Source: Ianthella basta (lineage: Eukaryota; Porifera; Demospongiae; Verongiida; Ianthellidae). From it: 64,000 nt of DNA. Shown here in pieces: positions 2,560 to 53,375 of the stretch (position 1 is its first letter; the number at the start of each line of letters is the position of its first letter). The stretch lies in the NCBI GenBank assembly GCA_964019415.1, contig OZ025874.1, positions 4,608,196-4,672,195 of the forward strand. Reading direction: 5' to 3'. The position numbers were made by a program, and so were the translations under genes. Under the pieces are notes generated by a model. That model did not search any database, was not told the origin of the DNA, and worked only from the letters and a program-made list of their open reading frames with translations.

Positions 2560-3231
2560 GCAGAGCATCAAGCACAGTTATGCCACTTTAGATGAAGCGG
2601 CTGCCGTGTACTGTAGGGTATACCAGCGCAACAAAATGGCGACATTGGGTTATCTTTAATACACGGGGAGGACAAATTTCCTGCCCGCTCCAGCGCTGTA
2701 CTTATCGGATTGCCACCGGCGCTCAGATCCTAGTCCTTGACCTAGGTACATAAGTCCTCATACACGAATTGGGTCCGTAGGTGACCTGTGTCGTGCGCTA
2801 GGAGCGCGCAAAAATTTGGTGGGAAGGAGAACAAGAATAATATGAAAAGACAAAAATGGGGTACGAGCAGCCTATGACGCTTTTCTCTTACGCGCACTCC
2901 GGGTTGCCTTTGGGTACACTGCCGTCGTCAATACATCAAAAGAAGCCTATCTATGGCCTTTAATTGTTCTTTGCCACTGCCGTTTGGCTAGTTTCGCTGA
3001 AACACCCTAACACATTAAGATAGGGATGCCATTTTGAACCGGACACAAGCGTGACGTCTGATAATAGTAATACACATCCGCATTCCAGAAGCCAAAGCCT
3101 CCTTCATGCATGTGTCACACCATCATTGTGGTGATTAAAAGCTAATTCCTACAGTAAGTTGTAGAACCTTTCTGTATATGACGATTCTTGTATGTAGCTA
3201 ACAGACTGTCATATACTTTCCCACTGTCCAG
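2560..3231. promoter_or_regulatory. CpG-bearing stretch upstream of helicase gene; possible promoter
   Basis: This stretch has more CpG than its surroundings and contains AAAATGGCG, which resembles a YY1-type motif, near 2634. It lies just before the first recognised helicase exon. No initiating exon with a matching splice phase was found in it, so it may be a promoter, an intron, or neither. Confidence 0.2.
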
Positions 3232-21772: not shown

Positions 21773-24700
21773 ATGGACGGCGGTGCTGCTGTGATGCCCG
21801 TAGAGGACGGCCGGAGTGGAGAGGACAGCGAAAGTCCTGAAGAAGAACAAATAACACCGGAAGATGGTTGCCTTCCTGCGACAGTAGCCGTACAATTCAA
21901 CAGGGAGCCTCGCTTTCGGCCGCTCCCAAATGAGAAGAAGTGTTGTCCTCTCCCAGAGCCCATTCGCACCAGCCTCACACCTCCCATAGCACGGCAACAA
22001 TGGGTGAAGTTTATCTTGCTTCGTCTCCCTATACTCCAATGGCTCTGGACCTACCAACCTAGCTATATTATCGGGGACCTCATCTCTGGGATAACTGTGG
22101 CTGTGATGCACATTCCTCAAGGTAAGTGCCTTCCCTGTAGTTAAATGTCTGTGTGCCTCGGGCATCAAGCCTCATGCCGTGTTATTGTACTGTTGGTCAC
22201 TGTATGTATGTATGTGAAATGTGCAGCGTGTTGCCTATGCCAGCTCCAGTGGGCTGTGTTCAGTGTTGTCCTGCATCCAGTTGCCCTATTAATGTGGTCT
22301 TGTTCAATGAGGAACGGTCGCTGTTAAGTGCCAGGATACCCATATTGTCACAGCTATGTATAGTGGGCAAAGGCTCCTCAGGCGGCCCAAAGCACTGCAC
22401 TTGTGTGGGGGCTGCATTAGACACAGAGACCACTTTGCACCTTGGCAGGAAGTGTCCCCCTCCCCATTGACACTGACTGGGACACACGGGTAGAGACTCT
22501 GTATGCTATGCTTAGGTTCACAGCAATCAGTTGTCTGCTTCCAACTCACTAGTGTCTACCCATGGCAAGGCACAGCTACCCTAAGAACTCCAATTTAATA
22601 CAGCATCTTGTACATACATACATGGCATGACTTGTTTATTCCCCATGTACCCCAGACTCTGACAGTACAAGGTGGGGTGTGTGTGGTTGTGCAAGCTGTA
22701 GAGCTCCGTCATGTGCCTTTTGTTTGTGTATGAGTTGTCAATGTGCAGTGCAGCTCTGGGGCTAGTACCCATCGCACTGTATTGATCTCAATAGCCATAG
22801 AATACAGGTGACAGGCTCCGGGAAGCACTTCCACATTTCTTCCTCCTCATTTCCTACTGCCAGACATTGTCCAGGTCTGTGGAGGGGTAGTCACATAGGC
22901 ACCTCTATCCTCATTCATTCAATTGCCCATTGTGTGTTGTATACACCTGTTGCCTGCTCTGTGGCGTGTGTGGAGATGTGTCATTACTGACCACTGTGTG
23001 TGAATTACACACACACCGTGTGATGTGGTACAAGTGGTGACTAGCTTGTTCCCTTTGTGCAGGTTTGGCATACGCCCTCCTGGCCAACCTCCCTCCTGTC
23101 TATGGGCTGTATGCATCCTTCATGCCCTCTATTGTGTATGCTTTCTTTGGGACGTCAAGGCACCTCTCCATGGGTAGGTTGTGTGCACATGTACATACGT
23201 GTGTGTAGCTAATTGTTAGGTAGTTTAAGAACAGTCCCTGGACAGTTTGTGGTGGGGTAAATTAATGGCAAGAATAACTCTTATGACAGTTTAGTATGTG
23301 CCAAGGACATAGTCTATTTATATACATACGTATACACACACAGATGTACTAAGTATGTAGTAGACTGGTTGTCCTGTAGAACAGTCACTGCTAGAAAGTG
23401 TATTAATGTAAATATGTACGTGTTCCCAGAAGAGGTTGTGTGTTGAGGCATAGCTAACTGATCCCTCTGCAGTTGTCCATACAATACAACAGCATTCTAC
23501 GTTGTGTTTTATTCTCTTCTCACCTACATGCACACAAGTGCACTTGTGCGCACATCTTTGTTCATAGACCTGTCCAACATTGGTCTTCTTATATGGTCCT
23601 GTCACAACAAATCGCCTCATACCCTGTGCCATCTTTTACAGGTACGTTTGCAGTGGTCTCTCTTATGGTGGGAGATTCCATCAACAAGGTGCTTGCTAAC
23701 TACCCACTCATTGATGAGGCCTGCCACATCTCCATGTCTTCCTCAGACGTCACTGAGGGTTTACTAAACGGCAGTAATGCCACCATGTATGGGGCTTGTG
23801 TGACAGTGGATCAGTGTAGAGACATGTGTAATGCTGTCACCACCAGTGTTGCTATGACAATAGCATTTGTCACTGGTGTCATTATGGTGAGTACTGTAGT
23901 GTTGTCACATGTGTACACACTGGTGGAGACACTCAGTCACATACGTACATGTGTACAGTACTAGCAAATTATTATCCTTCATGAGCTCATTGTGGGAGGT
24001 GGGTTATTTGCCCACTTGGAATTTTAGCAAGCCATAAGTCACCATAGTATTGCTCCCTTATTCCCCCCCCCCCCCCCCCCCATTTCTTGGAACCTCAGTT
24101 TTGCCCCCCTTCCCTCCCCGCATGACGAATTTTCCAAATACAGCACTGCCCTTGAATGTCACTGAATTTCTGCACTCATACGTGTGCACTTATGTGTGCA
24201 ATAATTGTACATATGTCCCAATACCTGCTTTGTTGCTCTCATACACTGTATATACTCTGCTGTTTTCCCAGGTTGCCATGAGCTTCCTCCAATTGGGCTT
24301 CATCACACTGTTCCTCTCCAGTGCCCTTGTCAGTGGGTATACCACTGCTGCTGCAGTGCATGTGGCAACCAGCCAAGTGAGGCATCTGCTGGGTATTCCT
24401 TCCATCAATGCAACAGTAGACCCAGGAGTCCTCAGCGTGCCCAATGTGAGTGCTCTGCTGTACACATATGCATGAGTGACTCTTTGGCACAGGGTAGCAG
24501 AGCTGCTAGTGCTACTACTCTAGTGTGTGCTAGTGTGGAATGTGATAGCAGAGCTGTGTGTGTACTCCTTCGCACACTCACATCCTTGCCTCTCCCTCAT
24601 TCCCTTGTTGATGTGTCTCATTTCTAACCCCTTACAGTTGTGGATCAAAGTGTTTCAAAACCTCTTTCAAGGCAATGTCAACTGGGTCACCATCATCATC

Positions 24701-24851
24701 TCCATTCTGGCCTGCACCTTCCTCATCATCATTCGCAATGTCAACGCGAGACTGACAAAATTCAAGTATTACAAGAAGTTCCCTGTACCAATCCCTTCAC
24801 AGCTGATACTAGTAAGCTGGGACTCTCTCCTATGGGCCTGGAGATGCTACG

Positions 24852-24902
<51 letters not shown>

Positions 24903-27900
24903 TGCAAGCGTGCGTGTGTGCGTGCGTGTGTGCGTGCGTGCTGTACATAGTGAGTTGTATTGTAGGAACGTTGGGATGTGGTAGGCAGACAATAGGCCCA
25001 GTGCCTAGTAGAGTGACACAAGCTGTATTACGAGTATGATGAATAGTGCATTGTTCCTTATTACATCATTGTGTAGTGTTGCATGTACAGTACTGTATGT
25101 ATAGTGCCAACCTCACACAACCTTACCTCTGATTGAACCCATGACTTGTGAGGTGTCAGACATGGTGTTATCCATAAATGTGATCAACTTACTCAGCAGA
25201 CTTCACTTGGTACTTAACATTACATAAGTTGAACCTTGTCCCTGGTTATTGAGGTGAAGGAGGTGGGGACTTGAATCAAGCACTGTTCTTCCTGTTCCTC
25301 TCATCAGTGCCCAAGTCAATTGTCTCTCCTTCCTGCTCTTGCATCATACCTCATAATCAGGGTCAAAGCTTAACCCAGACAGGTGCTGCACAGCCTGCTG
25401 TGCAATGGCTGAGCTGTTCTGGAGCCACAGTGCTGTATATAGCACGTGGCTGTAGGGGTATAGCAAGGCAGTACCGACCTCCCTGTGTGGTGCATATTGT
25501 TCTAAGCACTTACTCTCCAGCAGGCAGCAGCGAAGAGAAATGCACTTCACGCTCCAAGTGGTAAACTGTCACCCTGTGTTACTCCCAAGCATTTGCATAC
25601 CCTGTTGCTTGTTCAAAAACTTTATTGTAAACCAAAGTCATGACTAGAAACTGTGTTCAGCAGATCTGCAAGTCTAACTTGGAAATCAGCCATCACATGT
25701 TCTTGGGACACTGCACTAACCCAACATTTGACCCTTTATCAAGGGGTGCTCATCAATGGGTGTACATAATAGCCTATCCACTGATGAAGACCCTGGGATC
25801 ATGTCCTTATGTCCACTAGGCACTCGTGATCTGCAAGCATCTCTAGTCAATGGAGAGATGGCTGTGGTCCACTCCTGCTCACTCCTGTGATGACTATTTG
25901 TATTTGTATCATAACATCTATTCGGCACTCACTAAGGATATTGGAGTCAACTAAGCACCAATACATTTCAAATTCCATGCCAGTGGGTTGTTCCAGGCTG
26001 AAACAAGTTTTGGCAGCCTCAATCCAACCCAGATTGGGTGTGCAAGTGAAGTCGTCTGTGATATAATTATGGTGTGAAGAGGCCTTGTCACCCACTGGAA
26101 TCTCTTCTCCCGCCCTGCAGGTTGCCATCACCACTCTCATCTCTTATCTTGCAAAGTTTGAGCATAGATGGGCGGTCAGCATTGTTGGGGAAATCCCACA
26201 GCAGTAAGTGTGAAATGAGGCACATACGTATGTACATGCATACAGTACATATGTACATATGTATGTCCATCTATGAGATTTGTGCATGTACTATCATGCA
26301 TTCATGAAGGTGCAGTGGGAGACCTGCACAATTAGTAGCACTTTGTTTGTGTTAGCACAGACTATGGCACTTATGTAACTGTAATGTAGAAGTGCTAGTA
26401 GTGCTACTTGTACCGTATACATACAAATTTTTGTAGGACGTTATTTACGCGAATCCTTGGAGGTTCACGAAATTCAAATCGCGAAGATTCTTACAATTCT
26501 CAGGGCAATATGCACATACAGAAGGCGATGAATGGGTATGTAAGTGCGTAGTAAACGTTTCTTTTGTGCGGAATGGCCAAGAAGACGATCAAAGATTACT
26601 TTAAGACCATAGACGTCTTTACCAAGGACTTGCCAGCATTCATCCAGTGCTCAAGTGTTCGGGCTGTAAGGGAGGAGCTGAGAGCCATCCAGGAGCACAC
26701 CGACACAAAGCTTACCAGAAGATCTCTTTTGAGGACAAAGCCAGGATTGGACAGTACGCTGCCAAGAATGGTGTCGGTGCTGCTCTGCGCCACTTCAGGA
26801 GCACCAGAATGTTCTCTAGCCTAAAGGAGAGTACTGTTAGTGGCTGGAAGAACGTGTATTAGGGCGAGCATGTACGTTGAGTGGAAGTTTCCTGCCTGTG
26901 CAAGTTGTTTATGCAGGGAAGACACCTGCTTGCCTGCCAAAGGTAGACTCTCCTCCTGATTGGCATGTGGCATCCAGACATCCTTGTGAACATGATACCC
27001 ATGAACACAACTACTTAGATGGAACGAAGACATCCATAAACAGTCAGAAATGATACTCCAAGCGCCAGTAGAACGAACCAAAGCATACAGCGATGTCTGA
27101 GCCACACTAGGTGTTGATATCTTGCACACAAAGGAGCCATTCACAAAATTTTCAAGGCTTTGCATAATTAAAATTGCGAAAATTGTCCGGTAAGGGGCAT
27201 TCGCGGATTATACATCCAGCAAAAATTTGTACATGTACGGTATCTACTTCAACACATTGGGTCCTTGCACAAGGGGCTGTGCCTTCAGGCAAGGATAGAA
27301 CTCAGCTTGTTTATGCTGCTGTAAGTGCCTCCCTCTCTTGTGCACGCTCCTGTTCTTCATTGCTTCCACCTGCCCATGTCTGCATACCCTCTCCTCCCCT
27401 CCCTAGGCCCCCACCTATCTCAGTTCCCAATGTTAACTACATTATAGGAAGTGTCATCCAGGATTCTTTTGTCATTGCAATAGTCACTTTTGCAGTCAGT
27501 GTGTCTCTGGCACAAGTGTTTGCTAAGAAGTCCAACTACCAGATTTCATCAAATCAGGTATGTACGCTTTTGAGTACAGACACGCAGGTGTGTCGCCTGT
27601 GGTAGTTATATGCATACACATGTACACACATGCGTGTGTAGATATATGTACATAGCATGCTATGTATGTTAAGTGTCTCCAGTGTGCGTGTACCAGGGGT
27701 ATGCATGCATGTGTGTGGCATATGTGTGTGCAAGTGTATGGTACAGCCTAACCTACTGCTTACCACTCTCTTCCCTCTCTCTGACCTTAGGAGTTGCTTG
27801 CCTATGGCCTGACCAGCCTAGTGGGCTCATTCTTCTCCAGCTACAGCCCTTCTGGCTCCCTCTCCCGGTCCACTGTGCAGGAGGCGGTTGGAGGGAAGAC

Positions 27901-30900
27901 ACAACTTGTGGGACTCATCTCCTCAGCTATCATTTTAGCAGTAATCCTTAGTATTGCCCCTTTGTTTGAACACCTGCCAAAGGTGGGAACATTACAACAA
28001 CCACACACACACACATGCACATCTTACTTGTCTGTAGTAGTGACCAGTATAAAGTGTTGTACATAGCTAAGACATGGCTCCTTTTTGTCTCTCTCATTCC
28101 TTCTTCCCTTCACCTTCTGTCATTCCTTCCCCCTCGCTTCCCCTCCCTTCCCCTCGCTTCCTCTCTCTCTCTCCCTCTCTCCCCCTCACTCCCTCTCTTT
28201 CCCCCTCACCATACACATGCTGCAGACTATCTTGGCTGCAGTGGTAGTAGTTGCACTCTATGGAATGTTCAAACAGGTATTACACCTCATTAAGTACTGG
28301 AAGCTGTCAAAGCTAGACTTTGTAAGTTGTGGGCCATGTCTGTCATTCATGTGTACTGGCAGGGATGTACATACTGTAACATTATGTTGACTGTTCTAAA
28401 GCTACAAACTTGACTAGCATTCAATAACAGTCATTATCTCTACCTATATGACACCAGTCAGCACATTCACATGTCCACTTGACACTAAACACCATCTCTA
28501 AAGGCAGTATGTAGGTGATCAACAACCAGTTCATAACTGGTTAGGTTGGCCATGTGAGAGGATAGTACACATGTATGCCCTGTCGGACGGTAGAGGCACC
28601 CACTACAGGTGTAGCATGCCGTTTAGTCCAACATCAAAGAACCCTAGCATACAGTGGAGTAGTACTGAGGTGTCTCTCTTCAAGGGAGACACCTAATGAG
28701 GAGCAAACTGCAGATTAACATACATACATAGCATACAGTCATCAGTCGTGTGTGTGGTCTGTGGAGTCCCTGTTGGGAGAGGTACGTATGTAGGGGAACT
28801 GTGTGTTATTGTGTACTTGTATGGTGTGTGTTTCCCTGTGCAGCTCGTGTGGATATTTGTGTTCCTTGCCACTGTGCTCCTTGGAGTGGATCTTGGCCTA
28901 CTGGCAGGTGTTCTGTTCTCATTGTCCATGGTCCTCTTGCAGATAATACTGTGAGTGGTGCCACCGTGTACTGTGTGTGTGAAGGTGTGCATGCGTGAGT
29001 TGCAACATGGAGATGTTGAATGATGCAACTTATGTATGTATAGTGGAATCTCATTAACTGGAGCCTCCAGGGGACCTCATAAACAGTATTGAAATTCAAT
29101 ATAAATTTAGTAGAGTATGTACGTTAACACAATCAAAGGGTCATAACAGCGATGATTAATGTCATTAGACTGTAGTAGCAAAATAATCAGTAACATTGGC
29201 CTGTTTCTTCTGCTGTACTATTGCTGCATCAATGGATGAACAAACTTTCGTTACTTGTACGGCAGCATCAGTGCTTTCCAGATAAAGGGAATATTGCTCT
29301 ATCACATCCATAGCGGCCTTTGATGGATGGTGGAAGCTGCAGTTCATTGTGCACTTTGAAGTCATCACTGTTCTCGTCACTAGTGGTGACACCATTGTGA
29401 GTTCTCTGATAATCTTGGATGATGTCTTCGTCTATAAGAGCAGCACTGGTTTTGAAATCAACATTAGAATTGACCCACTCTTCAGGGTTTACTGTGGCTG
29501 GTACCAATTCAGGCTGGATAGATTGCAGCTCTTGCATTTTTTCCTGTAGGTCGGCAAATGTCAGCGGCACTTTCATTGATTATCTGCTTTACAAAAACAT
29601 GCAGTAATTGTGCTTTCTTTCACCTGCCTCCACGCAACTTTTAGCATCAGCATGGCATCTAAGATAGTAATTACTGACATTTTTATGGTGCTACTGTTGT
29701 ACTGTTCATCAATTTCTTGTAATGCTCTCTGTACCAATTGTGTCCTTTAGTATGCTTTCAAGGTGCGGAAAGCACCTTGTCCATCGGCTGTGTTTTAGGC
29801 ATAGTGTTGGGTGGTAAAAATACGAGGGTGACAGACTGGAGACCATCTACATTCGGTTGGGCTAAGCAGTTATCTACAAAGAGTACCACCTTTCTTTCAT
29901 CAGCAGAAATGGTTTGATTAAACTCATGAAGCCATTCAGTAACCAACTCCGCAACCATCCAAGACTTATGATGATGATAATGACAGGGCAAATTCTGGAC
30001 TCCCTTGAAGCATCTAACAACGGCAACTTATCTCCTACTGCATTGGCACCACACAGAACAGTGATCCTAACTTTGCTGCTTGCCCCCATGGCATTTTTCC
30101 TTCGAAAGATGCAGCGTGTGATTCGGAAGAGATTGGTAAAACAAACCACTTTCATCAACGTTGTAGATATCCTCTGCTTTAACTTGAGAAAGAATTGTGG
30201 GGAGGGTTGTTTCAGTCCATGGTGCAACCGTTTCTGCACTTACAGATGCACCTTTTTCCATAATGGTGTTATACCTGTCGCTAATGGAGACAGACCTCTG
30301 GGCTCTGGGCTTCGACATCATCTTTGTGCTGCCTGCACACTTTCTGCTTTCACAGAATCCGGAACACATGGTGCATGGCACTCGAAACAATGGCCGATGC
30401 TATCAGAGAAATGCTCTTCTTGCCATCTTATGTCAGAGGATACCACAAATACAAAGTTTTCTGGCCTCTGCATCTTGGGCAGAGTTTAGGTACTATGGCT
30501 GAAACCACAAATCCCCTGAACAGATTTGCTGTAGCAGTTCTGCTGGATGGTGATGTGGTCGGCACCTCACCACAGGAAAACTTGGGCGATATGTGTCAGT
30601 CAGCTTCTTTCTCCAGGCTGATGTTATGAAATCCTGCACAGTGGTTGTTACGGGCCAAGCAGTAACTCTTGGTGACAAGTAGGGCATGCAAGTTCCCTGT
30701 AACATGTGCTTTAGTGGCACCCGTGCTTTCCTAGAAAGGCTACAAAGGGGTTAGAAACATTGGAGCTATGATTTATTGACTCTGTAGTACTTTCATTGTT
30801 GTTAAATGTACATTTTAGTAATAATATGTTCCTCTAAAAGTGTTCCAATTAACATAATTAACGATCAACTAACGAGAGACCTTTCTATACTTCTGTATAG

Positions 30901-33900
30901 CACTTGTCCAAGGACATCAAACACTGTTCGATTTAGCATGCTGTTCGAGTTAAACCAAAGTCAAATTAACATGATTCCACTGTATGTAGTGAATGTATGT
31001 ACGTATGCTTGGTGTTTGTGATGTTGTGTGGTACTTACTGTACTTACCGTACTGTACAGTATGAATGTGTGTGTTTTTGCACTGTTCAGCTTGGTTGTGT
31101 TGTACGTACATTCTAGTGGTAGATAGCAAGACTTATACTGTACATACTTCTTTGCTTGTGTTCTGTGTTCCTTTGTAACAGACCACAGGTCTATATGTTA
31201 GGCCAAGTGCCAGCAGAGGGAAACAGGGATGGCAATGATACAGACTTGCAGGTTAGATACGTACGTATGTATGAACACAATATGTGAATGGAGGGTTTGA
31301 TGCTACAGTGTACCTGCATGTGTGCACTCTCTGAAACTGCATGCAAAAGGAGGGGGAAGGGGTAGAGGCAGTAGTAAGGGGAGAGGGATGGTAGGAGGGA
31401 GTGAGGGAGGGAGGGAGAGGAGAGGGAGAGGGATGGTAGGAGGGAGGAAGGGAGAGAAAGATGAGGGGAGGGTGGGAGAGAAAGATGAGGGGAGGGAGGG
31501 GGAGGGTGGGGGGAAGGAGATGACTGTGTTGTTCTTTCCATACTTTCCTTCCCAGGTGTACCCAGTAGAAGGGGTTCTCATTTTTCAATTTGTTGCTCCT
31601 CTGTGTTACCTTAACGTGGGTGTGTTCCGCTCAAGGCTGTTGATTGAGTGTAAGGTTGACCCCTTGTCCAGCCTGAGTAGCTCTCAAGATGGCTGCTTCA
31701 TGAAGGGCTACTCAAAGGTCAGATCTGGGTGCAGTTCTGCACTAAAGGTATTGTGTATCTTGGAATCCATCCTTCATTCTTTTTTGAGTGCTGCATGTGT
31801 GGTGTATGTGTTGTGACAGTACAGTGAGTTTTATTACCAAATGTGTTATTGATGAGAGTACAAGTTGTTGTCTGTCTGTGTAGTACATAGGATCAAAGTG
31901 AGTTTCACACCATTTCTGCAGTCTCTGTGGTTAGTTTGAACAATCCTGAGTGGTTAGGTAATTTGATGTTATTCAAGCTTGTTCTCACACTAACCAAAGT
32001 TCACAATGATTCAGACATTTCAGCAACTATTCAGCTGCCTTCATCAGTGATGGCAATATACAGCACTCCTACCATTTATAAAAGGGGGTGGAGATAGATG
32101 ATGATGGGTAGAGACAGTTGATGGTGTGAGTATGAATAATGTTAAAATAATAATTTCACAATTATTAATGAATTTTATTAATAACAATATGCACAGATTG
32201 TAAATAGTATAAGACAGTTGGCTGTAAGAAAGATCCAAAGCTAACTAATCTAGGAGGGCTGTGTACACTTCAGGCAAGGTTCCTTTCTCCCTGTTCGAGG
32301 GTCACCCTGTGGACCACACCAAGTCAGAGGTTATTGACTGCCACCCTTAACCACCACACGCTGTCTATTAGAGAGTTGGCACATACAACTTAACCAGAAC
32401 GGCTTGAACAGGGAGAAAGAACCTTGCCTGAATATCACTAATAATAGGCATAAGTGTACCCAGCCCTCTTAGATAAGTTAGTTTTGGATCTTTCCTTACA
32501 GCTAACTGGCCTATACTATTTACAACCTGTGCATATTATTATAAATAGAATTCATTAATTGTAAGATTTATTATCATTAGTAGTAGTAGTAGTAGTATTA
32601 ATAGGGAAATGACAACGAAATAATGATAAATTAATGGTATAAATTAGTGAAGAAATGAACTAACCATAAATATGCAAATTAATGATGATTAAATAAATGA
32701 TACTACAATATCACTAATAATAAGCATAAGTAAGATTTATAATTTTATTTTATTGTAAAATTATTATTTTAACGTTATTCATACTCACACCATCAACTGT
32801 CTCTACCCATCATCATCTGTCTCCATCCCCTTTTATAAACAGTAGGAGTGCTATATATTGCCATCACTGATGAAGGCAGCTGAATAGTTACCGAAACGTC
32901 TGAGATCATAGTGAACTATGGTTAGTGTGAGAACAAACTCGAATGACGTTCTCTGTGGTTGCATCAATCAGTCTTACAGAATATGTAAATGGATTGTGAA
33001 TCAATACTTGAAAAGCACTGTACTACTGTCTTATGTTTGTACTAGCTGAGAGATCTTTCTCGTCGGCGGAGACGTGCAGCTCGTGCTCCTGAATGCCCCA
33101 GTGCTGCTAGCACAATTGGAGAAGACACGGAGCAAGTCGGGGCCACTCGCGATGCCACTGTCAATGGCAATGAGGATGGGGAGCCTTGTTCACCACTTTC
33201 AGATCATTCAGACAGTAAGCTACAGAGGGGAGAATCATACCACATAGAACTTGGTGACTCTGAAGTGGAGGCAGATGTGGAACAGCCTCAAAGTCAAGAG
33301 ACAGCAAGGAGATTACATACCATCATTGTGGACTGCTCCGCCATCACATTTGTTGACTCCATTGGGGTAGACGAGTTGGAACAGGTGCGGCTTGCTCTGT
33401 AGACTCGCACACGCACATGCACACATGCACGCACGCACACACGCACGCACGCACACAATGATGACTCAGGTATGCAGTGAGATGCACCCTATCTCTGCTT
33501 GCTGCTGTATGCCTCGGTACTGTAGGTTGTGGCAGATTATGAGAAGGTTGGGATACAAGTGCTCCTGGCAGCAGTATCCAGTGAGTGTGGACCTTGTACA
33601 GTTACTGACATAACATGGTGTAATGCACAGCACAGGTGGAGCCTTAAACAGTTTTAACTTGATGAAATACAGTAGTCACATAATATTGTCACCTGCGAGT
33701 GGAGAAGCTGCATGGCCACTAACCAGTTTACATCCGTACAGCTGTAAACCAGCCAGACTGTTATTAGTGGAAGGTGGACCTATGTACACCTCTTACAGTA
33801 TAATGAGCAGCTGGTTGGCTGCAGATAAGCTTGGGTTTCTACTCGGACTAAAGTACAGTGTATGTACATCTTCTATGCACATTTTCTGCAGAGCATGTTT

Positions 33901-40600: not shown

Positions 40601-43600
40601 ACTACCCACGACACGATTATACATACACTGTATGTGTGTACATCTACATACGATACAAGCTAGTAGTAGTTTGAGGAGGGACTAAACATCCAAGGGAACC
40701 ATTCAACAGCTGCTCCATACGTATCAATACGATAAGCATACATATGTACTGTACAACATCAAGCAATGTGAAGGTCACAACTCACTGCTTTTTGCAGATC
40801 CTCTTGGTCAGGGTGGTCAGGCGGAGTCTGCATTGGACATCACAGCAATAACCCAAGTAACCATACATGTACACATCCACAAAGATATGTACTTATGTAC
40901 ATGTATGTAAACATTACCACAAGTACTGTGCTGATAAAACAAACAGACGTCATGAGACATACCACACGCTTAATCTCCTTCACAAGCACAGGATACTTCA
41001 TAAGTCTGCTCCTTGGTGAGTCTGAACAGGAGAGGTACATGAAAGAGATGAAGGCAATAGAAATGCACTGATGTCTCATATAATTATACGTACATGTGAT
41101 CAGTCATAAACACAGGATATGAGCATAGGATAAAACATATATTTTAAACTCTTTCAATCACTGGGTGCTACGTGTTCACAAACAACTGAAAGGAACACAT
41201 TGCACAAAGGGGAAGTGCAAAAGAGGCAAGTCCAGAATATGCATTTAATTGAAGGGTTTGCAATGAAAGGGGAAACCAACCTAGAAATGTCCACAGTTCA
41301 ATCTTCCTGGAAAACTCTGAGTCAAGGCAGCGCTGCAGGAAGTCCACCACTGCAGGGTTGTGCTTCTTCTCCTCCATGACATACTTGGCAGTTACCAGGT
41401 TAGCACAGTAGTCAAGGTAGGGTGACATGGAAGGGATCCACTGTAACATGACAGGACCCACTCTATCAATCACTTCATCCACTTTCAAAGCCTCCAATTG
41501 TTGGACCAGGTCTGTGAGTGTCCAAGGTGCGTAGTGCAGCGTTACACAATTACACACAAAAATGACTAGGTACATCATATACGTACTTACGTATGTGGGC
41601 CCATGCACCACACATCAATTTACACAAAACAGGAAGCCTTACTCTGTAGTCTCTCTATGTATATGCCAAACTCACGACTATGAAAATTAGAACATAGGTA
41701 TGTACAAAGAACAGTTTGTTAAACAAATCTGACTGCAAAGACAAGGTGATGTAAACATGTACTGTTAGCCTCATATCCGGGACTTAGATAAAAATGAAGG
41801 CTTGGTATGCACTTTTCACGCTAACCAATTTTTGGTTAAAATAGGATATTCCAGTATTCCTCTGTGTCACGATGAGTACGTACAAAGGCCTAAGCACAAG
41901 GCTAGTACCCAGGCCTTCAAAAGATTTCATCTCTCCTTCAGTGGCCCACGGCTGCGAAGGCCTGGGTACAAGGTACGAGTCGCTAGAGTGCATGGCACAT
42001 AAATATATCGACGTCATTTTACGTCACATCCCCATTACAATTATGCATGAATTTTGTGGGTTGTTTGGTATGAAATGCATACTGTACTTAATAATGTACT
42101 GTACGTAGTTTGCAGTGTTTATTGTATTTACACATGCACAACATAGCCTGACCTTCGTGCAAAGGCAACAGGTTCTGTATGTTTCCAAATATCCGGCAAT
42201 GCTCCTCAGCAGAGAGCAAGTTCAGCCTGAGCATTGGTTGGAAGAACACCTAAGGGAGGACAGGATGGGTCACACATACACAAGCTTCAAATGTGCCAGC
42301 TGGTGACACTGATATACTCACATTTATGACCATTTTCAGGTCTTCCACCATCTCCATTTCAGTTCTTAACAGTGAATATATTGCCTGAAGAAGTATACAA
42401 GTGATCACAAACTATCATTCTCTACCACAAGAAAAAGTAGCCTACGCACCTACCTAGGTATCTGAACATTCTGAAGTACGTATGACATTGTGCACGGTAA
42501 GCCCCAACACTACCAGAGACACACACAGAAACTTTGTCACCCGATGAAACCATACATCAAAGGTGAAAACAGGATTTTTGTTGTATGTATATTGACCAGA
42601 TTGGCTATACTGTAACTTGTGTTGGAACACTTGGCTCTTAATTTGGCCAATAGTTGTTGAAGCCTACTGTATTACATTGGCTTCTGTTCAAGTGTTCTGA
42701 ACAAATGTCAAGTATTGATCTTTCAAATGTTTTGCTGCCAAGCACTGCAAATAAATATACTGTGGCTGTCATTGGAAGCGTTAGATCTACTGTAGCTACC
42801 ATTACTCCATTCAAACCCTGTTAGAAGCTGATGACAGCTGCCTCAGGGTGTTTTTGCTGTGCCTTCTAGCTTGCATCCTCACATTGCAGTTTCAAAGTTA
42901 GCACTATAGTACAAAATAGGAAACAACTGCATCACTCAAAATTTTCTTAATTGCTTTATTGCTCGATCATTTCACCTTTGAACAGCAACAAGCCATAATT
43001 ATCATAAATATTATACACTATTCACATCTCTCATTAAACACATGAGACCTAGTGTACTGGATCTCCTCCCCACTCATACACTGTACCTCCTGTCTCTTTA
43101 TGTCTTCCTTTGAGAAGTGTTCTAGATTCTCCTCTCCAATGACTGCAGTCCAATTCTGTGGGATATGTGCTTTGTGTATCTTCATCCGTTTGGAGGGTGT
43201 CCCTTTCTTGGCAGTAGCAGGCAGATAGTACTTGGGAGGTGGCAGAGGATCTCGGCTGAAGCTGAATGATCGCTAAGGTACACAATAGGCTAACTCACTA
43301 GGGCACACAAAATCTTCCAAAGCAAACACTGAAGGCATGCCACATACAGTAGATCTGCAGGAACTACACATGTTGCATAGGTACGTACTCTGAAGATTAA
43401 ATGCACAATACATCCTGAGAAAGCATTATGCACACAAACATTAGTAAATGACAACACCTGTCTGCATACCCAGAGGCCTGAGTGAGGCATTGACCAGTCC
43501 ATTGTGCTAACCTAACCATTCTCACTGCAATGAACCACCCCAGTCTGATGTTCATAAACCTAGCCTGCAGTTTAGCCGTATCTCACTGGCCAAACCATAG

Positions 43601-44786: not shown

Positions 44787-46094
44787 AAAATAATAGTATT
44801 CATGTGACTCGTTTGGCGAGGCGCTCTGCGGCGCGCTCTGTGCGCACCACTTCAAAGAGAACAATGGTACAGCTGATTTAATACACACATAAAGCCAACA
44901 GTGATACCCTGTACTTAGCGGTGCTGGAAACGATTCATTCCAGTGTACTATCGTACGCTGAATCTTCGTGAGGTTACCGGACGGAACTGGGCCACCCATT
45001 CGTGATCGTCCGAAGTAACAAGCATCCACCAGGAAGGTGAGTTGTTGTTTACCGCATGCAGCCAGTCGAGCAGCGCGTGTATGCTAAAGCTACGTTATGA
45101 AACCTCCGACAAACCGTTTGTTTATGACAAGTCAGGAGACGTAGCGATGATCACGTAGCACTAAGCAAGCGTTACACCTCACACACACTGCGAAGGGATC
45201 GAGCTCTGTCTGAAGTGGAGAGCAACTGGCAGCCACCTTCTGCAGCACAGAATGCATTGAAAAGTGAGTCTCCATTAGAAGTGGAGGCCGTATTGGACCC
45301 TGGACTGTCATTGACCGGCCGGGCTGTGGTTCGCTTCTTGCACGGATTTTGATTTGTAGCATCCGACTTGTAGCTGCTGCTAGAAATGCATTCTGTGTGT
45401 GCAGAAGTGGACAGCCGTCCTACGACCACTGACAGTCCAGGCGCTCCATCGACGGTCTTAGGCGCATGCACATGGATGTTGATTATGCTTGCTTGCAAAC
45501 ATAATATATTAAATATGGGGGAGGGACTGGAGTATCTACTGGGCGCCTTGACTCCATTAGTATTTACAGCCTATAGGCTGCACTGTAATAACAGGCAGTA
45601 TATTTGCTTAAAAGACTAGTGCTGCTCTGACAGAATTGCTACACTGATATTGAATGCATTCACAGTAATATCTCAAATCATAGGTGAGAGTGGTTAAGCA
45701 TTAATTTTGAGAGTACGTTTTTGTCTCTGGCATCTTCCATTTTAATAGATATCCTGGTAATCCAATTGCTTTCTGTCAACATTATTGATAGCCAATCTAT
45801 TTTCTCTTACTTCTAATGTATACACTGCTATGTATGACCAGCCTCTAAGTGCAGCAGTTTCCTCAGTTGCCACTGTCACTCTGTTTGCATATGTAGGCAA
45901 GCACTTTGTGGACAGATCTTGATCCTATCACACTAATAATGTGTTGCACAAGGTGTTATGGCGTTACTGTACCCTATGACTGTGCATGTCTACATACCCT
46001 TTTATGTCCTTGAGACAGCAGTGCTAGATAATTAACAGCAGAATGAGTACTATGTAGTATATATGCTTTCTTTTCTCTCATTCACAGGCACACA
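44787..46094. other. Spacer between divergent RhoGEF and noggin-like genes
   Basis: The two genes point away from each other. A minus-strand frame of 108 codons (45172-45498, Ser-rich) is open, but its splice phase does not fit the RhoGEF exons. The 46084-46090 sequence CACAG just before the noggin-like start could be the acceptor of an intron in the 5' untranslated region. Confidence 0.45.
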
Positions 46095-46841
46095 ATGATG
46101 AGAGTACTGTTGGCAGTAATAGTGGTTACTGCTGTGCAGGTGTGTGCCACACGACGGAGGCCACCTTTCATTCTTAATAATCTTGTGGCATGTGGTAAAG
46201 ATGCTGATGATGACAAACCATCGGTTGTTCCAACCATACCAATAGCACCCACTGACCTTGACAAATTCTGGCTTCCTCAAAGTATTGCTGTGGATCCACC
46301 ACGAGGAAACATTAACTATCAACTATTGGAAGCTGAGTATATGAAAAGATACGGGATACCTTTTAATTCATCTCTGAGTGCTGTAGTCATTCCACCTGGA
46401 GAAGAGGGTTCCATTGATTACAAACTGACAAGACGTCCAGTGCCTGTTGTTCTATATCCTGATAGCCCTCCTATCAATCAGGATCCGGACTTGCAGGCCC
46501 AAGCTACAGAATTTGCAAGACTAAATAACCTAGGAAGATGTGATGAGACCATTACGTTCGAGTGGGTACGGCTACCAGATTATTACTTCCCACCCTTTGC
46601 ACTGACAGGGCGTTGCGTACCCGCTACCCCATCATGCGCGTTTCCTCCAGACGCAGGCTACCAGTGCTCACCAAATGTACGGGACACACAGCTTTTGGAT
46701 GTGCTTCGCTGGGATTGCTGTTATGCATTGGTTGATAAATGGTGGATGCGCAGGTGTGGCTGGCGGCATGTCCGAGTTCCTACTATTATTCACTGCGCCT
46801 GCGAGTGCGACGGTTTTCATCCAGCCACTAGCTTTGCTTAA
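46095..46841 (+). CDS. Noggin-like secreted cystine-knot protein A, 248 aa
   Basis: Noggin binds and blocks BMP ligands outside the cell. The coding sequence is one exon. The start codon pair MM precedes a signal peptide (RVLLAVIVVTAVQVCA), then a pro-rich region, then a cysteine-rich C-terminus of about 70 residues: GRC, SCAFPP, YQC, LRWDCC, RRCGWRHVRVPTII and CACEC. Human noggin shows the same order: LRW, a cysteine, RCGW, a run to P-II, then CKCSC. An N-glycosylation sequon (NSS) lies in the middle. Length is slightly more than human noggin (232 aa). It differs from noggin by an extra Cys (DCC) and by an unusual C-terminal tail after the knot. A second paralogue lies 3.3 kb downstream on the same strand. 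Noggin-like is firm on pattern; true BMP binding is inferred. Confidence 0.75.
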   Translation: MMRVLLAVIVVTAVQVCATRRRPPFILNNLVACGKDADDDKPSVVPTIPIAPTDLDKFWLPQSIAVDPPRGNINYQLLEAEYMKRYGIPFNSSLSAVVIPPGEEGSIDYKLTRRPVPVVLYPDSPPINQDPDLQAQATEFARLNNLGRCDETITFEWVRLPDYYFPPFALTGRCVPATPSCAFPPDAGYQCSPNVRDTQLLDVLRWDCCYALVDKWWMRRCGWRHVRVPTIIHCACECDGFHPATSFA

Positions 46842-47350
46842 ATCGTGAACATACTACTCATTCAGAAACACTAAGTTACTAGTCATGCATTGTGTCAATG
46901 GTTTCTAAGACATTATATTGTGTATTGTAGTCCCCCTGTAATACTAGTCACATTAGTATCCAATAATCACACACGCTGCCAAATGTATGTGGTAGTGGCT
47001 GAGTGAGTGTATGTGTTGTAAGTGCAATCATCATGATTTATTTCAACAATGTTTGTGTGTTTTTCTGCGGGAACGTGCTGGAAGTAAGCACTGGTATGTT
47101 ATACCCTGAGAGAAGTGGATCTACGTATCCTGCCTGTGATGCAGGTGTTTAAAGTAATTTATATTTTAATGTTCACAGTAATTGCTCAGTGTCCCTCAAG
47201 CAAGCCCCCCACAATGATTGCTTAATTGGTAGCTTTGCCCTCCTAATCTTGCTACATCTGTTTAGACACTTACAACTGCAATCAGTGTGCTCTCCTGTAA
47301 CCCCACTTCCAGCCTGTGTGATACTTGAGCTGCCTTTAAGTCATGAGCTT

Positions 47351-47356
47351 AATAAA
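47351..47356 (+). terminator. Candidate polyadenylation signal of noggin-like gene A
   Basis: AATAAA lies 510 bp past the stop codon of noggin-like gene A and is the first canonical signal seen downstream. Confidence 0.4.
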
Positions 47357-48496
47357 GCCACTGATTCATGCTTGTTGTATGAGAGCCTGCAGCAATGATG
47401 AGAGCTGCACTGCATCATATCCTATCTATCTATGGGCAGCACTAAACCGCTAAGTGATGCCAAATCATCTGGAGCAACATAAATACACAGTGGTGTCCAC
47501 TGTGACAGAATGCACCTTTCATGTACCATAGTCAAGTATGCATAATGCAAACTAACCTGTCATACTTTGTAGTAATTTAGCAAATTTTGTGAGTAACGAG
47601 CTAAAAATTAGTACCCACCAAATCCTAGACTGTACAAATGCTGGATTTAGTTGCTGATAAAATTTGTAGCCTTAAAGTATCTCCTCCCTGATTGTAGAGC
47701 TACACAATGGCTAGGATAAACGCAAAGTGCTATTACAGTACATTTTAAGTTCATGATTCAACACAGCTAGGATGTCAGACTTGTGCAAGTATACAATATC
47801 TTAGGTCCACCATTAGTCCTGTCCCCAGCCCACTTCCAGCCTCCATTTGCATGGGACAGGAGGTCTGGCCTTTTAGTTAAAATCCTTGATACTACCTGAA
47901 CATTCTGGCCTGGTGATCATAATTGCCATGTCATCACAGGTAACAGTTGAGCACCTGTCTCATCTAGTCCAGAGTATACCTGTACATGGCTGCTATCATG
48001 GACATCCAGTGACTAGAATCATAGGGAATGATGGTAGACCTTGTATGAAGCATACCACCTTGCACGCCTTCCTTGATTTCAGATTCACTGTGACTACAAA
48101 CGGCCCAGTATAGGTGATTCAGGATAGTCCCTAAGGCAGAGGCATCTTCGTTTTCCTACCCATCAGTGAAGGAAATCTCTTTGTTTCATCAATTGCCGAT
48201 TTTGACTCGTACTGTACATATGTCACAAAGCAGTCTCTGTTATTTAATATATTTGTCCAAAACTCCGTGCCCACTGTCCATGATCACTGCAAGGGCAATA
48301 TTGTGCCACCAGTTACAGTACGTGACACTATAACATGCCATTTCAGTACCACTGTGTGCAAGACGAAGAGAGAGTCCTTTCCTGTAGAAATTGCACAGTT
48401 TTTTAATACGCAATCAGTGCAAATATGTGATTATGCTATTGTTACGTTATGTGTTATGACGTATATATCAATGTCATTGATGTCAAGCATTTGGAC

Positions 48497-49017
48497 TGAA
48501 GATGCCAGCCCAACTAGTCTGGCCTGCTATTCCCTACACCCGCCCCTGGTTGTGCGTGGGCGAGAAAGTAGGGGTCTAGCAGAAAATGTGAATTTCATAC
48601 CTCATGTTGACCAATCAGCTTGTGACTACCAATTTCACACCAGCAGTTACTAAGTTGGGCGATCATTCTTTGCCAACAGAGTAGGAGCAAAAGCTGCAAG
48701 GAAAGCACAAATACGTTGTGGATTGGAGGTGTGACACAGTCTGTGGAGTTCATCAACCTGGGATGGTGGCATTATCCCCAGAAATCAGTGACTGAATTTT
48801 GTGCTGAAGCTGTCTAACTGATCTGTGGAAGAAAGGAGTAGTTCTAGAAGATAAATTAATCGATATCCTTGTTCATCTGAGTCATCAGCATCGTCTGTAC
48901 TCCTAGTTCCCTGTTAGATTTACAATTACTTTTTCTGCTAGATCTTACTTTCTTCCCCAAGCACAATCAGGGGGGTGGAAGTAGGGAATAGCAGGCCAGA
49001 CTAATCTCCAGCCTGAC
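48497..49017. repeat. MITE with about 55-bp inverted ends
   Basis: The left end has AGTCTGGCCTGCTATTCCCT and the right end has its reverse complement AGGGAATAGCAGGCCAGACT; similarity continues for another 25 bp inward on each side (GGTTGTGC against GCACAATC). The 520-bp element has no coding capacity and separates the two noggin-like genes. Confidence 0.75.
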
Positions 49018-50109
49018 CCATTAAGAATGGCAATCAGGACTGGCACTCGAGACACAGCTAATACAATTTTTGTAACTTGTATTGTGTACATTAATTTTCA
49101 TCATTTGGCACAAGGCAGATGTAAAGTAGGCATTGCTGAGCAAAATGGGGGTCTGGCTATGCAAGACTGCTCACACGCTATGTGTATGTCCTATTTAACT
49201 GTGATAACTGTTGCTTTGATGTGAAATGTGATGATTTATTAGTCAAAGGCAACTTAAAATTATCGCTTTGTTTTTTGAGCATATAGCTATACTATCCTTA
49301 TAAGGAGTACGATGGCTCTGTCTGTGTATGTCGTACATCCGTTTGGGCCACGGGGGAAAGTTTTGGTCAGTGGTCTACAATGCGTGTAGGTGTACGTATA
49401 TACACCTTTTAGTCTCATTTCCAACCCATTTATACCAGCCAATTTGCATCTCATAAGCATTGTGGTCACGCTATCGTGCATATCATTATACACAATGGAT
49501 AGAGTCAATACAATGTCCTATAATACTGTCATTAGCAAAGACACTCGGCCCTACTTATGGTCATTAGGCACGGCATGCTACAGCTCCGGATTGCACCACG
49601 GGCAATTCTACGGACCGTAGACTGTCATGCAGACTAGCAAGACGTCCAAGTTGACCTAAAATGTAGAAGTGCGAATGCATGGAAGAGACAGCACAAGACA
49701 ACATAAGAACATCATTCTGTTTACTGTTTAATCAGTGCATGAATCAGTGAAACAGCCACTGCATGGCGCTTCCTCAGGCTCACCCCACAATGCTTTGCAT
49801 TCTCTAATGTATCATCTTCTTAGTTTATTCGCTGAAATTGAGCAAACAGTATGTCAGAGCAGAGCGCCAGCTTCAAGCATGGGTACCATTTCCTATGTTT
49901 CTCATACTTAAAACCAAGTTTTGCTGCCAGCTCAAGCTGTCGGATGTGATGTCATCACAATTATGTCACCTTCAATTTTAGATCCACTCATACCTGAGCC
50001 ATAATGGTAAGTGTCTATTAAGAATTTGCACAACCTGCTAGATTCTTATTTTCCTTGTCCCTGCTTCTTACCTCATTCTTTTCTCCCTTAAATGTTTGCA
50101 GGTTTCACA

Positions 50110-53100
50110 ATGAATTTTGTGGTAACAGCTCTTGCACTCTTGGCACTTGTGGCTTGGAATGAGGCATACAATGCCCCTCCTGCCCCTGGTCCCGGAAGTA
50201 TCTATGATCTGTTGACATGTATCGGGCCACCTATTAGGAACCAGTCCACTGAGTATCCTCCAGTGATTAACCTAGTTCCAGGTATGTTTTGTTTCATGAC
50301 GTGCTAATTTAGATTGTGTAGCAAGGTTTACAGTGCAGGATAATGTGTCAGTCTGCCTATGAAATGCAAATGTACAGTCCAATTACCTGATATGCTCTGT
50401 GGTTATGTATGTTTAAGGTACAGGTCACAGCTCTAAAAATTTGAGAAAAGGTTATCAGACAGCACGGTAGTGCTGTCTATGTAGGGATTGTTGTGGTCAT
50501 TTGTATGCTGTAATACAAACGGAAAGTGCTCTGCAACATGATAGCCTATTCAAACAGAAGTAACACACCTTGCAACCACAGCTTATCCTAGGCTGCCCAC
50601 CCAGCCACATCTTACAATGTGCTTGCTACACACCCTACCATGCATTTGGGGCACATACCTTTGCTGCCACTGTTGTTTGGAAGACTTTCAAGTAGACCAG
50701 CCATTGCCCATGTGCAATTTTCATTCCATAAAAAGTCAAGAAACAAGGGTGTGTAAAAACTTTCCTCCAAAAACAAGGGCAGATGTAGGGATGGTGCAGC
50801 GTGTCTCTGAAGGGCATGGCAAACCACTTGGCGGAAAAAGTGTAGGAACAAGTAGGAGGGCCGGTCCATGCAAAGAGGGGGGGTAGCTACGTGGATATAC
50901 GTATATGGAGTCTGAATTTCACAAGCTTTGGCAGTGAAGTGTACAATGTTTGTGCTGGCCTAGAGCTAAACAGTGTGGGCATGAAAGTGGGTGTGCTGGT
51001 TTGCAGGCAGCGATGTAATGAACAGCTATGGTAAGCATTGATATTGCAGTTGAGCTTAGTGGTTTGCCGGGGTCTCATGGCAGGGCGTGATGGCTACATA
51101 GGAGATGAACCAAAAAAATATGGAGCCTGCAACTGATACATGGAACATGTAATGAATTGGAAGAGTCCTAGAATCTAGGAGGTGCTAGATTATAGAGCAC
51201 AGCAAAGGGGTGATTGAGTAGCAATTTGCAGGGCTTAACCTGGTGGAATGCTCTACACATGGCAGCAAACAGTTGATGAAGGTATCTGCATGGGCATCAG
51301 CAAATCTGGCTGAGGGAATAACTCTGCAGTGAAAGGGACCATGACAGTGACCTGCCACTGTTTAGTGTACACATTCCTGTATAGATTCTGGATACAGTGT
51401 TTGTTTATTCAACCGTTTGGGGCAGACATAAGCAGAATTCCCTGAAACTGTTTTATTTCACCTGAGATGAAGCCCTTCAGCCTTCATTTAGAATATTAAG
51501 GAAGTGTGATTAATTAGCGATACATAAGCATGAGCAATATATGTACTCTAGCATTCTATATCACCTTACTTGTTCCCACAAGCTCAGTGGATTCATTCAT
51601 GTCATGCTCTTTTCTTGTACAGCCCTACAAAAAATGCCTTGGCGTCCTCCAAATGGAACTGTTCCATTGTATTATGAGAGTTATAACACGATATTCAATG
51701 ACTCAGCACTTCGGAACAGGCTAATTGACCACATTGGGCGAGAGACATACGAAAACTTCACTGCACCCATCACCTTCATTGTTGAAACTCCAACTGATCC
51801 GGTACCCAGTGCTAATGCACTGTTAACAGGTCCTGGATGTCAGATTCGGCCACTGCCAACACGGTACCCCAACATTTCCTCTACCGCAGTGATTAATGCT
51901 GGCCTTCTGGACATTCTGGTTTGCAACCCAAGTTTTTTCATTGGAACCCTTATACCATATTACTTTCCTCCTCATATTGTCCAAACAACCTGTGATAATC
52001 AAATTGGAGCTACGACGTGAGTTACTGTAAATACTTAATAATTTATCTTATTGTGAATACCAATAGTATTCAGTGGTGCTAGCAGCCCTTTCTCCTGTTA
52101 TTGGCATAGGTGGTATGTAGTTATGCTACTGTAGAAATGGCAATGACAGACATGTCCGTCACATTTCACAGGTGTCACAACACACTACGAAACACATGCT
52201 AGACATGATGTGAGCATTGCCATGATAATGGTTGCCACACTGACATCTACAGTATTGTTAGAAATGACATTTGACGAAGATGCAAAGTAGATTTATAATC
52301 AGTTATAGAACTAAGTAACAAACCATGGCTACAGTACTGAGGACAGTGCAGGTGACTTGAGATGCTGAAGGAGAGGAGAGAATTCATTGGTGATAATACC
52401 GAAAGTGATGTATGTACACAGCAATGTGTGGCTCCTAAGCAGACTTTGGCAGGAAGGTGGTTTATAAGGCTCCAACATTAGTTCTTTTGTTCATAGAAGT
52501 GACTTAGACAACATGAAACCAGGAAAGTGAAAAAGGATAGATTCACAAAAGGCACAAATCTGCCATTTTCTCATACACATCACTAAAATATTGTGATAAC
52601 TAATTGCTCACAATGTACCATACTTTGAATGCAATGTAAATTATAGTTTCTGCTGCAGTGTGACCAATGCCTTAGAGGGCGCCCTATGTCGTGTATAGCT
52701 GTGATCATCTGCCAACTTGGCTATGATGCTATGCATGCAGGTAACGTGTAGTGAAATAATTACATTTGATCATATTAGTACAGAAATGAACTTGGTAGAT
52801 GTTTTAGTCTGTGTATATTCGTTCTTGTTGTTATGAAGATGGATGCTACTGCATTCATGGAGGCTTCCTAATGGTGCTCCTCAGCACTGATTGATCACTT
52901 ACTGTGTTGTGACTTCCAGTTGTATACTTTTGCTACTGTTTTAACTCAGTTTTCCACTTTATAACCCAGGGATTTATATACCTTGCTTCAGAGAGAGATA
53001 AACCTATAATTATCTAATCCCAATCAATGTGCATGTGAATGTGAATGTATTAGCCAGGATAGAGTCTCCGTCACACCTGGTTTAATGTGTCATTTGAAGG

Positions 53101-53375
53101 GTAATTTTCTGTACATGTTATAATGAAATCCCCACCTATTGACACTGGTACTGATCTTGTAAATGATGTCCTCTTATGTGCTCCCTCCCTTCAGCTGCTC
53201 TATTCCAATCGGAGCTGCTATGTGCGTTATTGACCTGACGTGCAATTACAATACGCCAATGCTCAAGTGGGACTGTTGCTGGACCTGGGATAAGGAACAG
53301 TCAACTTTTGTCTATTCGTGTGGTTGGAGAAGGGTGTTTGTACCTGTTCCCACTGGTTGTGTTTGCTCTTGCTAA
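50110..53375 (+). CDS. Noggin-like secreted cystine-knot protein B, 248 aa, three exons
   Basis: Exons 50110-50281, 51623-52016 and 53195-53375 join in phase and give exactly 248 residues, the same as paralogue A. The signal peptide is NFVVTALALLALVAWNEA after the start Met. The middle holds several N-glycosylation sequons (NQS, NGT, NDS, NFT, NIS). The C-terminal knot has TTC, CSIPIGAAMC, LTC, LKWDCC, YSCGWRRVFVPVP and GCVCSC, and ends in CSC as vertebrate noggin does. It shares YYFPP, L(R/K)WDCC and CGWR-V-VP with A, and a WxPPxG-like block in the middle. The two introns, absent in A, hold a dispersed repeat (50455-50560) and no genes. The role is presumably BMP antagonism, not shown. Confidence 0.78.
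50455..50560 (+). repeat. Dispersed repeat with TGTAGGGAT motif, copy 1
   Basis: It has CAGACAGCACGGTAGTGCTG, TATGTAGGGATTG, and CTGTAATACAAACG. The same order is seen at 60898 and a diverged form at 63105. The first part is itself a short palindrome (GACAGCAC...GTGCTGTC). Confidence 0.6.

Follow-up and report, generated by a model that had tools for sequence, protein, structure and literature searches.

In other animals, noggin-type proteins block growth signals, and noggin dimerises via its last cysteine. The pair of genes described here is noggin-like and lies in a sponge genome, with one of the two genes split by introns. Noggin genes are known from vertebrates and invertebrates and are stated in PMC7483449 to have no introns in their coding sequence. 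Noggin-like proteins (planarian nlg, pea aphid ApNL1 and ApNL2) are noggin-related and come in several copies per genome; they are described as variable in length and without a conserved clip. In the passages of PMC13121700 that treat them, noggin and noggin-like are separate bilaterian genes and sponges are unmentioned. The terms for invertebrate comparisons occur in the Noggin4 paper (PMC4789793) in the reference list only.

A sponge noggin is not new, since one from Suberites domuncula (Mueller 2006, cited in PMC3323548) is said to be expressed as stem cells become sclerocytes. Cystine-knot proteins of Ephydatia, Amphimedon, and Oscarella are reported in PMC4079206 to mix features of glycoprotein hormones, bursicon, and BMP antagonists, in a comparison that left out noggin. 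Our pair shares a demosponge origin with the first of these two systems and a putative sponge cystine knot with the second. In 2011, PMC3169577 concluded that noggin and other diffusible antagonists postdate the core pathway, given their absence from Amphimedon and Mnemiopsis. A noggin-profile gene on a multi-megabase demosponge contig argues instead for an older family, one that Amphimedon lost or in which it went unnoticed.

A tandem gene pair in a demosponge

The window, a stretch of 64,000 nucleotides from Ianthella basta, was initially read from its sequence alone as carrying a tandem pair of genes with equal protein lengths and different exon structures, in what looked like an early-branching animal. 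Both parts of that reading hold. Gene A has one coding exon and gene B three, each encoding 248 aa (for B in the preferred model), and the mitochondrial contig of the assembly is that of a demosponge (code 4, 25 tRNA predictions, atp9). We consider it probable that A and B are old tandem paralogues belonging to the noggin-like cystine-knot superfamily. Their coding parts are as follows.

46095..46841, + strand: gene A, noggin-like protein; single coding exon from the ATG at 46095 to the stop at 46841, 248 aa
50110..50281, + strand: gene B coding exon 1; hydrophobic leader, mature N-terminus, Cys37
51623..52016, + strand: gene B coding exon 2; middle region and start of the knot (Cys158, Cys181)
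53195..53375, + strand: gene B coding exon 3; remaining knot, LKWDCC, CGWRRVFVP, CVCSC, stop

The two introns of gene B (50110-53375) measure 1341 and 1178 nt, are both GT-AG, and fall in phases 1 and 2. An alternative donor after 50290 would lengthen its protein to 251 aa. Intron 2 lies directly 5' of the Cys190 codon, within the knot, where the first reading had put it. The N-termini of both proteins are hydrophobic by eye and are candidate signal peptides.

Similarity to noggin

Both proteins contain the L(R/K)WDCC and CGWR-V-VP motifs that had been taken for the noggin pattern. Profile searches bore this out for gene A but not for gene B. Against the curated cut-off of 24.1 bits for Pfam Noggin (PF05806), A scored 33 bits (E 6.9e-8, residues 153-238) and B 13.7 bits, under the threshold. 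A search of the PDB with A gave noggin (1m4u, E 0.0073) as the sole match with E <0.1, and the same search with B, or with its exon 3, was empty up to E 10. Aligned with the human noggin segment of 1m4u, A scored 107, where the maximum in 5000 shuffles with cysteines fixed was 62; B scored 70, equalled by 2 of 5000 such shuffles. A two-sequence profile of A and B scored noggin at no better than E 0.11.

By alignment, nine noggin-type cysteines (knot and dimer, with disulfides predicted) are kept in A and B. Eight of these are inside the segment aligned with 1m4u, and the first (A Cys149, B Cys158) is upstream of it and presumably corresponds to human Cys155. With Noggin the pair also shares the C-terminal knot, LRW-C, CGW, and the C-x-C-x-C end. 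It differs from Noggin in two extra cysteines, an even number, common to A and B: the second of DCC and one near the N-terminus. The DCC cysteine had been described as shared by the pair and absent from vertebrate noggin; the first point stands and the second holds for human noggin, the vertebrate compared. Judged from sequence, A and B appear to have a noggin-type C-terminal framework, more weakly so for B.

The BMP-binding clip is a further difference. Against A, the human clip (Gln28-Glu48) had a local score no higher than that of 7819 of 10000 shuffles, and against B no higher than that of 3675. For the clip of ApNL1, the one Noggin-like protein compared in this way, the corresponding counts were 8639 (A) and 1705 (B) of 10000. 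The N-terminus of B, PAPGPGSIYDLL, had looked by eye like a human-type clip and was dropped as a candidate when the shuffle test gave it no support. Neither protein thus has a detectable clip, though these scores leave room for a strongly diverged one, and for this reason we file both as noggin-like and not as canonical Noggin. A noggin-type knot without a conserved clip places them in the Noggin-like/Trunk/PTTH superfamily, with the knot match of B below the Pfam cut-off.

Structure predictions were unusable, both for gene A, modelled with the exons of B as added rows (mean pLDDT 35.2), and for the C-terminal core, supplemented with pieces of the B exons (mean pLDDT 45.6), and the low values probably reflect few relatives. 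Foldseek on the core model, meaningless at that confidence, placed PDGF first (E 1.0) and noggin third (E 1.9). The low-confidence model had a helix followed by two strand pairs, noggin-like by eye and without weight as evidence.

Proposed ligand binding and possible functions

The most likely role for A and B is as secreted dimers that regulate TGF-beta-type ligands. Both would be secreted and, as in noggin, dimerise via the last cysteine. A Cys33 would pair with Cys209, and B Cys37 with Cys217, tying the N-terminal arm to the knot. The match between Cys33 and Cys37 is one of position alone, because the N-termini of A and B do not align significantly (score reached by 2851 of 10000 shuffles). 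That the two proteins bind TGF-beta-superfamily ligands and limit their access to receptors, as secreted modulators without a recognisable human-type clip, we rate as an evenly balanced proposal. The genome has ten TGF-beta ligand-domain matches, all ten above cut-off, and together with the clipless pair these form a system in which to ask whether BMP trapping was the family's first function. A broader scenario is quite doubtful: the superfamily may have duplicated before sponges and other animals diverged, its first members being clipless general extracellular regulators with the N-terminal arm fixed by the extra disulfide, and the free BMP-binding clip arriving later.

Alternatively, A and B could be Trunk/PTTH-like ligands, clipless members of the same superfamily that activate a receptor tyrosine kinase rather than trapping BMP. 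PMC9071555 groups Noggin, Noggin-like, Trunk, and PTTH into a single cystine-knot family and describes pea aphid ApNL2 as a Torso ligand and ApNL1 as both inhibiting BMP and activating MAPK. Trunk has been reported from a ctenophore (PMC6660194), and the undetected clip is also compatible with such ligands. However, gene A has hits to the Noggin profile and to noggin in the PDB, the pair has no Pfam or PDB match labelled PTTH or Trunk, and PMC6660194 also states that Porifera lack the moulting-pathway components investigated there. We therefore regard Trunk/PTTH-like ligands as unlikely.

Intron history

Gene A conforms to the noggin rule of an intron-free coding sequence and gene B, with its two coding introns, does not. 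Given what is stated of known noggins, A has the usual structure and B is the exception. The first reading had linked the pair to retroposed or intron-loss duplication; this comparison does not support retroposition, since A need not be a retrocopy if noggins are reported to be intronless in their coding part. Each gene also has an acceptor-like site just before its ATG.

46066..46094, + strand: acceptor-like site of gene A, 7 nt upstream of the ATG; CAG with a pyrimidine tract, the exon starting at 46088
50080..50109, + strand: acceptor-like site of gene B, 8 nt upstream of the ATG; CAG, the exon starting at 50102

The tract of gene A has 17 pyrimidines in 19 positions, and at least 17 are reached by 3 of the 3182 ATGs in the window, its own included; that of gene B has 14 of 19, with at least 14 reached by 54 of 3182. 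Upstream of the two genes there are seven candidate first-exon donor sites. Each acceptor-like site is likely the end of a 5'UTR intron of its gene, and their similar placement suggests that this intron is shared. In the history we favour, a 5'UTR intron would be present in both genes, A would retain the usual intronless coding structure, and B would have gained two coding introns.

The opposite course, in which a B-like ancestor with introns gave rise to a gene A that lost them by retroposition or partial cDNA recombination, is improbable. Gene A does lack both introns of B. In 3'-biased cDNA recombination, the 5'-most intron is kept and later introns are lost, a pattern that gene A would fit. 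Loss in A is needless, however, if known noggins have no coding introns, and the acceptor-like site by its ATG, expected to be missing from a spliced-mRNA retrocopy, disfavours full retroposition. The 959 bases that follow the stop of gene A contain no run of at least eight A, although an old copy could have lost such a run.

Relationship between A and B

Returning to the two genes as probable old paralogues, their proteins are 28% identical over 277 alignment columns, with 29 gap columns in each, so that the equal length of 248 aa looks coincidental. BLASTP gave E 4e-10 for the single comparison over 113 columns, and the local score was 122, where the best of 2000 cysteine-fixed shuffles of B reached 80. 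On these comparisons, the relation between A and B is not due to chance. Among identical residues in degenerate codon families, 23 of 32 have differing codons, pointing to a protein sequence conserved over a long time. The alignment runs in the same order in both, YYFPP (B exon 2) preceding WDCC/CGWR (B exon 3). A genome search with protein B retrieved A (E 7.9e-5), and protein A as query missed B. It is very improbable that B is an unrelated cysteine-rich secreted protein with a convergent motif, or that its exons belong to different genes: the one-way genome search, the sub-threshold Noggin score, and the empty PDB search would fit, but the BLASTP match, the cysteine-fixed shuffles, consistent splice phases, and the shared motif order all speak against this.

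Genomic context

Searches of the genome with PF05806, protein A, and protein B found no further noggin-like copies; those with PF05806 and protein A also missed B. Two further matches to protein B, on C6, were at chance level (E 2.05 and 3.19). The DAN family had no genome match, and the control genomes gave none either. The Chordin domain also had no genome match, and one control genome matched. The silicatein motif pattern had 0 matches, though it would miss a motif that varies or is interrupted by an intron. Homeobox matches numbered twenty-seven, twelve of them on the minus strand, and none was Hox-like by eye. Between genes A and B, and outside both, lies a MITE-like dispersed repeat (48515..49003, strand unassigned) with 32-nt terminal inverted repeats.

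Gene structure and family assignment

Two noggin-like genes stand where they had been proposed from the sequence alone, and we regard them as a real and informative tandem pair:

46095–46841, plus strand: gene A, a single open reading frame of 248 aa, with its ATG at 46095 and its stop at 46841
50110–50281, 51623–52016 and 53195–53375, plus strand: gene B, preferred model, GT-AG exons, 248 aa

For gene B, pairings of GT donors and AG acceptors near the exon ends proposed earlier were enumerated by script, and two of them gave an open protein; the alternative uses a donor 9 nt further on and encodes 251 aa. The introns of the 248-aa model are 1341 and 1178 nt long, in phases 1 and 2, and the second falls just before Cys190, within the C-terminal cystine knot. 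The sequence-only reading of one coding exon against three, with one intron inside the knot, agrees with these models. Equal length also holds (with the 251-aa form as the other possibility for B), but as the proteins align at 28% identity over 277 columns with many gaps, it looks like coincidence.

Searched against Pfam with hmmscan (E up to 1), each protein matched a single family, Noggin (PF05806; cut-off 24.1 bits). Gene A scored 33 bits (E = 6.9e-8; residues 153–238, profile positions 135–211 of 211) and gene B 13.7 bits (E = 0.058), so the noggin pattern read in both proteins is borne out by the profile for A and falls below the cut-off for B. The top PDB match of A was human noggin (1m4u, E = 0.0073), with three others at E of 0.58 or more. 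Neither B (up to E = 10) nor its third exon alone matched any PDB entry, and a two-sequence profile of A and B reached noggin at E = 0.11. A and B are homologous, matching each other at E = 4e-10 across 113 columns. To separate similarity from cysteine spacing, we permuted the non-Cys residues with the cysteines fixed. The A–B score of 122 compares with a shuffle maximum of 80 (n = 2000), and that of A against the human noggin segment, 107, with a maximum of 62 (n = 5000); the corresponding score for B, 70, was equalled or beaten in 2 of 5000 shuffles. Together, the Pfam, PDB and shuffle results point clearly to A as a relative of noggin and to B as a relative of A, and weakly to B as a relative of noggin on its own account.

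Cysteines, clip and proposed mechanism

Mature A has 11 cysteines (33, 149, 174, 181, 191, 208, 209, 221, 234, 236, 238), Cys17 being assigned to the leader, and mature B has 13 (37, 130, 158, 181, 190, 199, 205, 216, 217, 231, 244, 246, 248). Eight in each align with the human noggin segment; a ninth, N-terminal to it, presumably corresponds to a further human noggin cysteine. Beyond these noggin-type nine, the number is even in both proteins (Cys33 and Cys209 in A; Cys37, Cys217, Cys130 and Cys205 in B). Common to both are a cysteine near the mature N-terminus and the second cysteine of WDCC (A Cys209, B Cys217), the latter as previously read. We propose that these two would pair together, and the extra disulfide may fix the N-terminal arm. 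Between the N-termini of A and B the alignment score is at shuffle level, being reached in 2851 of 10000 permutations.

Passages of PMC9071555 describe human noggin as binding BMP-7 through an N-terminal clip, Gln28–Glu48, with Pro35, Leu46 and Glu48 critical; noggin-like proteins as lacking the clip; and clip-deleted ApNL1, a pea aphid noggin-like protein, as still inhibiting BMP, more weakly. The human clip (query sequence confirmed against 1m4u) scored no better in A and B than in shuffles (reached by 7819/10000 for A and 3675/10000 for B), and the ApNL1 clip score was matched by 8639/10000 (A) and 1705/10000 (B). Unlike human noggin, neither A nor B has a detected clip. With both clips at shuffle level, we file the two as noggin-like proteins, not canonical Noggin.

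Most likely, A and B would act as secreted dimers with a cystine knot, binding TGF-beta-type ligands extracellularly and restricting their access to receptors, as noggin does, with the human-type clip missing from the mechanism. The main rival is that they would instead be receptor tyrosine kinase ligands of the Trunk/PTTH kind. For A and B as traps of TGF-beta-type ligands, candidate ligands are there: the genome has ten TGF-beta domain matches, all over the cut-off. Five of these lie in two tight clusters, L006, L007 and L009 at C23:4392694–4403109 and L008 and L010 at C12:7239002–7245827. The chordin domain had no match in the genome, nor did DAN, in a search without a working control.

Introns and retroposition

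Known noggins are without coding introns, as stated in part of PMC7483449, so it is gene B, not gene A, that departs from the usual structure, and a gain of introns by B is a simpler account than their loss from A. Directly 5' of its ATG each gene carries an acceptor-like site, which reads CAG/GCACACAATG for A and CAG/GTTTCACAATG for B. The two strands of the window have 3182 ATGs between them; a tract of at least 17 pyrimidines out of 19 precedes three, two of them gene A's own ATGATG (through spacing), and at least 14 of 19, gene B's value, precedes 54. The site is thus rare for A and uncommon for B. If true, a 5' UTR intron common to A and B would mean that A is not a retrocopy of a spliced mRNA. 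Given this site and an intronless structure usual for noggins, a retroposed origin of A is not supported.

Genomic setting

No third noggin-like copy came up in genome searches that used PF05806, protein A or protein B; the PF05806 and protein A searches also did not retrieve B, so a diverged further copy may be missed. Other features of the window are:

3182–18632: coding segments for AAA_11/AAA_12 helicase and RNB domains
21593–33402: sulfate-permease (SLC26-type) gene pieces (Sulfate_transp 17.7 bits, STAS 20 bits, both under cut-offs)
41168–41614, minus strand: exon with a RhoGEF domain, upstream of A and B
48515–49003: element between A and B, bounded by 32-nt terminal inverted repeats that are 91% complementary

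The first, perhaps two genes, we take to resemble a HELZ2-type helicase-nuclease gene. A 511-base query with the last gave at least 81 matching pieces genome-wide (40 of 60 candidates scored), a number that counts pieces rather than elements, with the query, each of its two arms and incomplete copies among them; the element is therefore a dispersed MITE-like repeat.

Noggin in sponges

The pair is of a known gene type, here in a phylum reported to lack it, with B an unusual intron-bearing, divergent copy. Noggin is given as present in cnidarians, Trichoplax and bilaterians and absent from Mnemiopsis and Amphimedon in part of PMC3169577. Sequenced sponges, Oscarella excepted, seem to lack BMPs or Chordin according to sections of PMC11226491, which hold no mention of sponge noggin; PMC4079206, on sponge cystine-knot hormones, omits noggin from its comparison. 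An excerpt of PMC3323548 (citing Mueller 2006) states that Suberites domuncula expresses noggin as stem cells become sclerocytes, so a demosponge noggin is already claimed and ours is not the first. No title on sponge noggin was among the matches listed in the open-licence literature, and the genome papers on Ephydatia and Oopsacas do not use the word in their main text.

The host animal

The assembly amounts to 209 Mb in 96 contigs; C7 carries the window, and C96 (21,233 bp) is a mitochondrial genome. Nine in-frame TGA codons in cox1 indicate genetic code 4. Pfam identified ATP synthase subunit c (atp9), atp6, atp8 (as YMF19, with the ATP-synt_8 profile under its own cut-off) and an NADH dehydrogenase subunit; there are 25 tRNA predictions (20 + 5), and the remaining genes were read by eye from open frames. 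The combination of a mitochondrial atp9 and a complete set of tRNAs is indicative of a demosponge and speaks against cnidarians and ctenophores, in keeping with the early-branching animal supposed earlier. The absence, judged by eye, of Hox-like homeodomains among 27 genome matches (42 candidates; E ≤ 1e-6) agrees. In C96 (L041, L042), open frames away from the main genes, such as those containing HMGVLNPLWVFHNW and TPSGARQ, share similar short peptide-like stretches, a hint of short dispersed repeats; exact 25-mers common to L041 and L042 occur only in the two tRNA-Ser genes.
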